Source of the DNA: Pelagomonas calceolata
Taxonomy: Eukaryota > Sar > Pelagophyceae > Pelagomonadales > Pelagomonadaceae
NCBI GenBank assembly: GCA_918797485.1
Contig: CAKKNE010000001.1
Location: forward strand, 4,650,001 to 4,714,000
DNA: 64,000 nucleotides
Direction of reading: 5' to 3'
Positions 31,164 through 34,922 of the stretch are shown here, one piece after another. A program made the position numbers and the translations under genes. The notes beneath the pieces are model-generated. The model was not told where the DNA came from and made no database searches. It saw only the letters and a list, made by a program, of their open reading frames with translations. Numbering within the stretch: the first letter of the stretch is position 1; each line of letters opens with the position of its first letter.

Positions 31164-31305
31164 CTGGCGCGATGTTTGTGTGGTGGTGGTGTTTTTGTGC
31201 TTAACGATTGTCACTTGACCCGTGATCTTGCCTTGGCGCGGGTTTTTTGTCGGTCCCGTGTAAATCGCAAGGAATAAGGGAATCAGCTCTCGAGACGCTT
31301 GGAAG

Positions 31306-31443
31306 TACTGGTCTTTTCGAAGGCGTGGGTTCGAGTTCTCTAGTCGGAACGATCCTAACCCCACGGTCCGTAGATACATCGCGGATCTGAAACCTGAACA
31401 TCAAGGTTGAGTTTGCCGAGCGGTCTAAGGCGCCAGTTTCAGG
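31306..31443 (+). tRNA. Permuted tRNA-Leu(CAG) with D-arm and T-loop introns
   Basis: The 3' half (31306-31372) lies upstream of the 5' half (31381-31443), separated by 8 bases. Acceptor strands GCGGATC (31381-31387) and GGTCCGT (31365-31371) pair over all seven positions with two or three G-U pairs; discriminator A372. Introns: 31390-31414 (25 nt) between position 9 and the D stem, and 31335-31357 (23 nt) in the T loop. Removal restores TGGCCGAGCGGTCTAAGGC, the universal leucine D arm, and GTGGG-TTCGAAC-CCCAC. The anticodon arm CCAGT-TTCAGGT-ACTGG forms only by joining the 5' half end to the upstream 3' half. A 13-base variable arm (CTT-TTCG-AAG) fits leucine. A T8 run follows the 5' half. 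Confidence 0.92.
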
Positions 31444-31453
31444 TAGATGTCTC

Positions 31454-31461
31454 TTTTTTTT
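31454..31461 (+). terminator. Pol III terminator of permuted tRNA-Leu
   Basis: Eight T residues start 10 bases after the 5' half, with further T runs behind; the termination point proves that any mature 3' half must come from upstream. Confidence 0.8.
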
Positions 31462-34819: not shown

Positions 34820-34922
34820 TACAGTCTGCGGGATTCGAACCCGCGCCCGAAGACCAGTGCCTTAAACTGGCGCCTTAGACCACTCCGTTGGGACGTGGTT
34901 TCACACGTCTGGCCAAAACTGC
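34820..34922 (-). tRNA. tRNA-Leu(AAG) with a 25 nt intron in the D arm
   Basis: Colinear gene on the minus strand. Acceptor strands GCAGTTT (34922-34916) and AGACTGT (34827-34821) pair over seven positions, discriminator A at 34820. The anticodon arm CCAGT-TTAAGGC-ACTGG has anticodon AAG and no intron in the usual place. The T arm GCGGG-TTCGAAT-CCCGC is perfect. Between the D-stem GCC (34913-34911) and GAGTGGTCTAAGGC lies a 25 nt insertion (34910-34886) that folds as GACGTG-TGAAAC-CACGTC. Removing it restores the canonical leucine D arm and A box. The loop TGAAA-C is the same as in the D-arm intron of the tRNA-Ser. Confidence 0.9.

Follow-up and report, generated by a model that had tools for sequence, protein, structure and literature searches.

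The window analysed here is a 64,000-nt stretch of the nuclear genome of Pelagomonas calceolata, a pelagophyte stramenopile (C1:4650001-4714000). The 32,445,274-base assembly has 8 contigs, including two with lengths of 90,574 and 39,373 bases, and so matches the P. calceolata RCC100 genome, which is described as six nuclear contigs (32.4 Mb) together with a 90-kb plastid contig and a 39-kb mitochondrial contig (PMC9481584). At 31306-31443 on the plus strand lies a unit in which the 3' half of a transfer RNA (tRNA) for leucine with anticodon CAG stands upstream of its 5' half, an arrangement taken from direct reading of the sequence with coordinates rechecked. This permuted gene is real, and it is very probably functional: we interpret it as a circularly permuted nuclear tRNA-Leu(CAG) with its junction at positions 37/38 and with two further introns of the bulge-helix-bulge (BHB) type, belonging to a disrupted set of tRNA genes in this organism. 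The order of the halves, the cloverleaf, the geometry of the cuts and the terminator can all be read from the DNA itself. The parts of the locus are as follows, with ^ marking a cut and H the central helix.

31216-31221, plus strand: TGACCC, the reverse of GGGTCA, 5' of the unit (motif count)
31239-31248, plus strand: upstream element CGGGTTTTTT, 67 nt ahead of the 3' half (motif count)
31292-31305, plus strand: leader, whose GAGACG can pair with TGTCTC of the trailer; TGGA (31300-31303) is a central-helix strand and AG^T a bulge (joining and BHB scoring)
31306-31333, plus strand: 3' half exon 1, positions 38-57 (3' strand of the anticodon stem, variable arm, T stem, start of the T loop)
31334-31356, plus strand: T-loop intron of 23 nt at 57/58, BHB H=GGTT/GATC, cuts CG^A and CT^A
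31357-31372, plus strand: 3' half exon 2, positions 58-73, discriminator A73
31373-31380, plus strand: spacer GATACATC, 8 nt, between the 3' and 5' ends of the tRNA
31381-31389, plus strand: 5' half exon 1, positions 1-9, the 5' acceptor strand and TG
31390-31414, plus strand: ectopic intron of 25 nt at 9/10, BHB H=GATC/GAGT (3/4), cuts TG^A and TT^G
31415-31443, plus strand: 5' half exon 2, positions 10-37 (D arm, 5' strand of the anticodon stem, CAG anticodon, G37)
31444-31453, plus strand: trailer, removed at the junction
31454-31461, plus strand: T8 run, a terminator of the RNA polymerase III (Pol III) type

When the two halves (31306-31372 and 31381-31443 overall) are joined at 37/38 and both introns are taken out, the result is an 82-nt RNA that ARAGORN calls tRNA-Leu(cag). 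Its acceptor strands GCGGATC and GGTCCGT pair at 7/7 positions, two of them G-U, the T stem GTGGG/CCCAC at 5/5 and the D stem GCC/GGC at 3/3, and the anticodon stem CCAGT/ACTGG, which is formed solely across the two halves, at 5/5; the spliced molecule has a long variable arm and A73. The original prediction, made from the letters of the window, had placed the 3' half before the 5' half, assigned the isotype Leu and the anticodon CAG, counted seven paired acceptor positions, held that the anticodon arm could form only by joining the halves and ended the unit on the T8 run. All of this is borne out, in that both halves are needed for one cloverleaf, the ARAGORN call on the joined RNA agrees in isotype and anticodon, and the T8 run lies just beyond the 10-nt trailer.

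We scored every possible intron of the unit for BHB geometry and judged significance by shuffling the letters of the intron or the leader in 20000 trials. In a BHB motif each bulge is cut after its second nucleotide. The strict form of the motif is described as a 4-bp central helix with two 3-nt bulges (PMC3978253). The intron at 57/58 (31334-31356) is an exact fit with 4/4 central pairs and a 5-bp intron helix, and the intron at 9/10 (31390-31414) is likewise an exact fit, with 3/4 central pairs and a 5-bp intron helix; geometry as good appeared in 12/20000 and 16/20000 shuffles, respectively, and cutting both introns at their BHB sites gives a canonical tRNA. The two ectopic introns proposed earlier, of 25 nt before the D stem and 23 nt in the T loop, thus find support in the cut geometry; for the second, presence and size stand, and its boundaries move from 31335-31357 to a better position one base to the left, with an identical mature RNA. 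At the 37/38 junction the bulges are GG^T and AG^T, the central helix TTCA/TGGA is paired at 4/4 positions and the anticodon stem serves as the flanking helix. This motif is of the relaxed type, its distal helix being interrupted, and leaders with an equal number of central pairs arose in 430/20000 shuffles; BHB geometry supports the junction less strongly than it supports the two introns.

These pairings bear on whether two unrelated tRNA fragments have come to lie in this order by chance, with a coincidental cloverleaf. T-arm-like motifs do arise by chance in 32 Mb, as at two T-arm matches (L063 and L081) that were dropped as chance and are not tRNAs, and where tRNAs are dense ARAGORN yields permuted calls that are chimeric or GC-rich: across 125 fetched loci, which total 267,242 bases and in many cases surround tRNA arrays, it called 160/16554 units, and among the matches listed were the Leu(CAG) gene, chimeras between adjacent tRNAs of an array and false calls in GC-rich sequence. 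We therefore treat a permuted call as a filter and place the weight on the specific pairings. Against coincidence stand the 7/7 acceptor and 5/5 anticodon pairs that span the halves, the cut geometry, which is independent of the cloverleaf, and the 29 bases of 5' half exon 2 (31415-31443), of which 27 are identical to the real, colinear tRNA-Leu(AAG) gene nearby. Any permuted tRNA call at all arose in 1/1200 dinucleotide shuffles of the unit, and among sliding 170-nt units on both strands of the window 4/4256 were called, three overlapping the Leu(CAG) unit and the only unrelated one a GC-rich false call without the TTC loop. We regard an origin by chance as nearly excluded.

General tRNA finders do not see this gene. 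Unaided ARAGORN missed it, Rfam cmscan at the gathering score found nothing in the window, and a generic permuted-tRNA covariance model (R1) likewise overlooked the gene there, a miss that is probably owed to the introns. Presented with the doubled unit, ARAGORN labelled it 'caa', 'SeC' and others in some windows, because it is free to choose the position of the anticodon-loop gap.

The same layout recurs elsewhere in the genome. We compiled a tRNA inventory from T arms with a T run and from D arms, parsing the matches with a BHB-aware search; the inventory is incomplete, with several expected isotypes not found, and several of the top parses cut out, in addition, a spurious stretch beyond the gene. 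It contains a permuted tRNA-Cys(GCA) (L101, plus strand, 350-428; C1:2086401), with the 3' half first, 7/7 acceptor pairs, a 7-nt spacer, T73 and a T9 run, and with no further intron. It also contains a permuted tRNA-Lys(CTT) (L109, plus strand, about 236-388; C2:5690660) with a 7-nt spacer and G73, which carries introns in the T stem (H 4/4) and at 9/10, the latter at the same position as in Leu(CAG). A variable-loop intron of Lys(CTT) comes from hand reading only, the program parse having kept it in and mislabelled the anticodon; read in this way, the gene comprises five exon pieces with three proposed further introns. Both discriminators are right for their isotypes. A separate Tyr-like permuted candidate (L108, minus strand, about 326; C2:4253561) has CCTTCAG/CTGAAGG acceptor strands paired at 7/7 positions, a 3-nt spacer and T and D arms; its anticodon arm could not be read and it has no T run, and we do not count it as a fourth permuted gene.

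The flanks of the unit suggest where its transcript would begin and end. Within 160 nt upstream, GGGTTTT occurs at 10/17 nuclear tRNA genes as against 0.010 of random stretches, and GGGTCA or TGACCC at 8/17 as against 0.033 (11/24 and 9/24 when all rows are taken, the seven rows outside the 17 being second and third Gly and Pro copies, a second Glu(TTC), the unresolved L108 and Ile(AAT)); as the motifs were picked after viewing the same sequences, the P values are optimistic. The common upstream element CGGGTTTT is separated by 67 nt from the 3' half of Leu(CAG) that follows it, a position that supports a transcript starting ahead of the 3' half; Lys(CTT) has GGTCAAA instead of a GGGTTTT element. 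The spacer GATACATC contains no terminator, and the T8 run follows only after the 5' half. At 31328-31338 of the window, where the exon continues into the T-loop intron, the intron letters keep GGTTCGAGTTC matching the Pol III B-box consensus in 10/11 places at the DNA level.

This arrangement also speaks to the reading in which the halves are separate RNAs, trans-spliced in the manner of the split tRNAs of some archaea, with no single circular transcript. The 37/38 BHB could form between two RNAs, and permuted order by itself does not prove co-transcription; against this, the halves lie just 8 nt apart, the corresponding spacers of Cys(GCA) and Lys(CTT) are 7 nt, and the common upstream element stands before the 3' half, just as the 5' half is followed by the long T run. 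We judge trans-splicing of separate halves to be extremely unlikely.

The remaining rival holds that the locus is a decaying pseudogene, a Leu gene rearranged by tandem duplication and insertion and left unprocessed, with CTG codons read by Leu(TAG) or by an unseen colinear Leu(CAG). The original prediction had named an intact colinear copy elsewhere as part of the finding that would speak for a pseudogene, and neither the pattern searches nor BLAST found one. A D-arm/anticodon pattern with one mismatch allowed matched 43 times in the genome, its 2 exact matches being the permuted Leu(CAG) and Leu(AAG); the same D-arm/anticodon sequence gave 0 matches to viral contigs in one scan. A pattern for a colinear Leu(CAG) anticodon arm, again with one mismatch, matched 20 places, among them the positive controls Leu(AAG), at 1 place, and Leu(TAG), at 6; of the other 13, the seven most CAG-like had a T-arm motif within 60 nt downstream in 0/7 cases, and the remaining six, without CAGG at the anticodon, lay outside that T-arm check. 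BLAST with the mature Leu(CAG) returned only pieces of the permuted gene and Leu(AAG), which is weak evidence given that Leu(TAA) and Leu(TAG) were missed as well.

Several observations weigh against a functional permuted gene, and some of them favour the pseudogene. The absence of a colinear Leu(CAG) rests on patterns that may miss disrupted genes and on a BLAST search insensitive to other Leu genes. Leu(TAG) genes with a D-arm intron are present in the tRNA arrays and could read CTG through wobble, such that Leu(CAG) is not proven essential. Pol III transcription might be weakened by a TTTT within the 3' half (31314-31317). The central helix of the 9/10 intron contains one mismatch, and the leader-trailer duplex of Leu(CAG) is no better than that of shuffles, 287/500 being as strong. 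With this pairing at chance level, the evidence for the junction is chiefly the cloverleaf and the central helix. As to the other permuted genes, the leader-trailer duplex was matched by 497/500 shuffles in Cys(GCA), Lys(CTT) being the sole standout (13/500), and the 37/38 central helix is at chance level in both Lys(CTT) (6182/20000) and Cys(GCA) (3649/20000 in register, 3942/20000 one base out). Against decay, none of the stems is broken, and this holds for the stem that needs both halves; three junctions keep their cut geometry; the T8 terminator and the upstream element are both present; BLAST, within its limits, lists each piece of the gene once, with no remnant of a tandem copy; and Cys(GCA) and Lys(CTT) repeat the layout with discriminators that accord with the usual isotype rule. 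The CTG codon is also common, making up 154/647 Leu codons in 8 long open reading frames of the window, delimited mechanically. A pseudogene therefore seems to us very unlikely, and a functional permuted gene remains the reading we adopt.

A host that expresses such a gene would need to cut and seal its transcript at several places, and P. calceolata encodes candidates for both activities. Two genes have the endonuclease catalytic domain PF01974, and both match solved structures of tRNA-splicing endonucleases; one of the proteins matches Sen2 and archaeal enzymes, and the sole eukaryotic endonuclease match of the other is Sen34, a weak one (E 0.00078). A Sen54-type N domain and one RtcB gene are also present, so that judged by sequence matches the host has genes for a Sen2/Sen34-type endonuclease and an RtcB-type ligase. 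Close relatives of both catalytic subunits occur in public sequence sets, with tara and mmetsp among the sources. The Sen2-like subunit (L099, minus strand, 1321-2106, 261 amino acids) matched the archaeal-type EndA (5x89) better than human Sen2, a preference that may be uninformative given the few eukaryotic structures.

From these elements we infer transcription, an order of steps, a circular intermediate and charging. Pol III would transcribe the 3' half, the spacer and the 5' half as a single RNA ending in the T8 run, and the precursor would fold to form the acceptor, T and anticodon stems. The Sen2/Sen34-type endonuclease would then excise both introns, in the T loop and at 9/10, and would cut away leader and trailer at the BHB of the 37/38 junction; RtcB-type ligation would seal each site to give a circular pre-tRNA. 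The circle would be opened when RNase P and RNase Z take out the 8-nt spacer, after which CCA would be added and the tRNA could be charged. In Cyanidioschyzon merolae, permuted pre-tRNAs are reported to pass through a circular intermediate by way of a BHB and then to be opened at the acceptor stem (PMC3978253). For Leu(CAG) this route would be the simplest.

The original prediction read this one gene correctly and missed its wider setting, which includes the two further permuted genes and many BHB-type introns, among them that of the neighbouring Leu gene.

34820-34922, minus strand: colinear tRNA-Leu(AAG) with a 25-nt D-arm intron at 34886-34910 (12/13) (cloverleaf and BHB)

The BHB of this intron, H=TTGG/CCAA by hand, has 4/4 central pairs, and ARAGORN alone misplaces the 5' end of the gene. 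It is one of ten fully parsed colinear nuclear genes whose BHB-type introns are in atypical positions: Leu(AAG), Leu(TAG), Ser(TGA), Ala(CGC), Val(TAC), Glu(TTC), Glu(CTC), Pro(CGG), Tyr(GTA) and Phe(GAA). Four more intron-bearing genes are partly resolved: part of the tRNA comes out wrong even in the best program parse of Gln(TTG), Lys(TTT) and Pro(TGG), and in Leu(CAA) (L068) strict BHB cutting leaves the D loop two bases short. For Asn(GTT) on L101 (minus strand) and Ile(AAT) on L082 the program returned 0 parses, and both are hand readings at most. An initiator-Met style pattern was dropped after giving 10 matches as against 81 for its reversed control. When eight introns were compared with 20000 shuffles each, geometry as good appeared 16 and 12 times for Leu(CAG), 1 for Leu(AAG), 0 for Ser, 1 for Val, 20 for Ala, and 4 and 1 for Lys(CTT), figures that are partly circular in that five of the eight introns were placed with the help of the same geometry; the Leu(CAG) introns had been marked in the original prediction and the Leu(AAG) intron cut from its cloverleaf, all before BHB scoring.

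Uninterrupted genes are present too, among them Arg, Ala(TGC, AGC), Trp, Leu(TAA), Thr(TGT) and Gly, many of them in repeated arrays. Such nuclear arrays are spread over several chromosomes and combine Arg, Ala, Ser, Leu(TAG), Leu(TAA) and Trp; they occur at L062, L064, L067, L072 and L074 (C1, C2) and partly at L094 (C6). In the Ser(TGA) gene as read at L062, the T stem is interrupted by a 26-nt intron with a 4/4 BHB. At L068 (C2:2014700-2015400) the Leu(CAA) gene with its D-arm intron stands immediately upstream of an uninterrupted Gly(CCC), and at L113 an uninterrupted Val(TAC) adjoins a tRNA called SeC. The Val(TAC) gene at L071 (minus strand; C2:4606832) has a T7 run within its D-arm intron, which might end Pol III transcription early. 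ARAGORN calls a Leu(tag) at L103 (plus strand, 360-430; C1:3127068), which has a short variable loop and an odd anticodon loop. A complete-looking 72-nt tRNA at L083 (minus strand; C4:2222053) has the anticodon CTA and is called 'Pyl' by ARAGORN; if real, it would read the UAG stop codon.

Set beside known systems, Leu(CAG) is a known kind of gene in a new lineage and in a more fragmented form. The 2014 review counts 34 permuted tRNA genes from six algae and one archaeon, each with at most one further intron, and names as the groups concerned a red alga, green algae, a nucleomorph of green origin and an archaeon (PMC3978253). The spacers that it gives between the 3' and 5' ends of the tRNA in known permuted genes span 1-74 bp, a range that includes the 8 nt of Leu(CAG). 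The closest parallels are the type II (37/38) genes of C. merolae, where the 3' half comes first, a short spacer follows, the junction has a BHB and a T run stands after the 5' half; Table 1 of the review lists among them a permuted Leu(CAG), with the same anticodon as ours and a 9-bp spacer, and a Gly(CCC) with a 7-bp spacer that combines permutation with a T-loop intron at 55/56 (PMC3978253). P. calceolata differs in that the genes belong to a stramenopile nucleus and not to a red alga, in that its T-loop intron lies at 57/58 and not at 55/56, and in having two further introns in Leu(CAG), and three proposed in Lys(CTT), as against at most one in the table of that review.

Prasinophytes and the Bigelowiella natans nucleomorph also have permuted tRNA genes (Maruyama et al., 2010, via PMC3978253), to which Auxenochlorella is a later addition (PMC12633428). 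Short spacers and the 37/38 junction, which holds for all but one of the genes in the review's table, are common to the prasinophyte and B. natans cases and P. calceolata, and a permuted Cys(GCA) is shared with the group formed by these and Auxenochlorella. In contrast, B. natans and the green algae reviewed are described as having almost no atypical introns (PMC3978253), whereas P. calceolata has many. In this respect it resembles the Guillardia theta nucleomorph, whose genes are reported to have several introns each, located in D and T arms (Kawach et al., 2005, via PMC4090602). Permutation in cryptophyte nucleomorphs is named in PMC4090602; the table of PMC3978253 lists only B. natans among nucleomorphs. 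Thermofilum pendens combines permutation with an intron as here, but it is an archaeon and its junction is at 59/60 (PMC3978253, Table 1). We found no report of permuted tRNA genes from stramenopiles in the open-access literature, subscription papers and supplements lying outside the search, and the word tRNA is absent from the main text of the P. calceolata genome paper (PMC9481584).

Taken together, our analysis makes it likely that this stramenopile nucleus builds much of its tRNA set by fragment assembly, with several permuted genes, a Lys(CTT) made up of five segments and, in many other tRNAs, BHB introns in almost every arm, all of which would depend on a broad-specificity Sen-type endonuclease and RtcB; it would be a second system of the C. 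merolae kind, whether independent or derived from the red-algal endosymbiont. Plain tRNA finders miss such genes, as with Leu(CAG), or misplace their ends, as with Leu(AAG). It can now be tested whether the disruption of tRNA genes was brought by the red endosymbiont or arose anew, and how a eukaryotic splicing endonuclease accepts BHB motifs outside the anticodon loop. Also open to experiment is how Pol III is recruited to genes whose internal boxes are reversed, for which the upstream element CGGGTTTT is a candidate.
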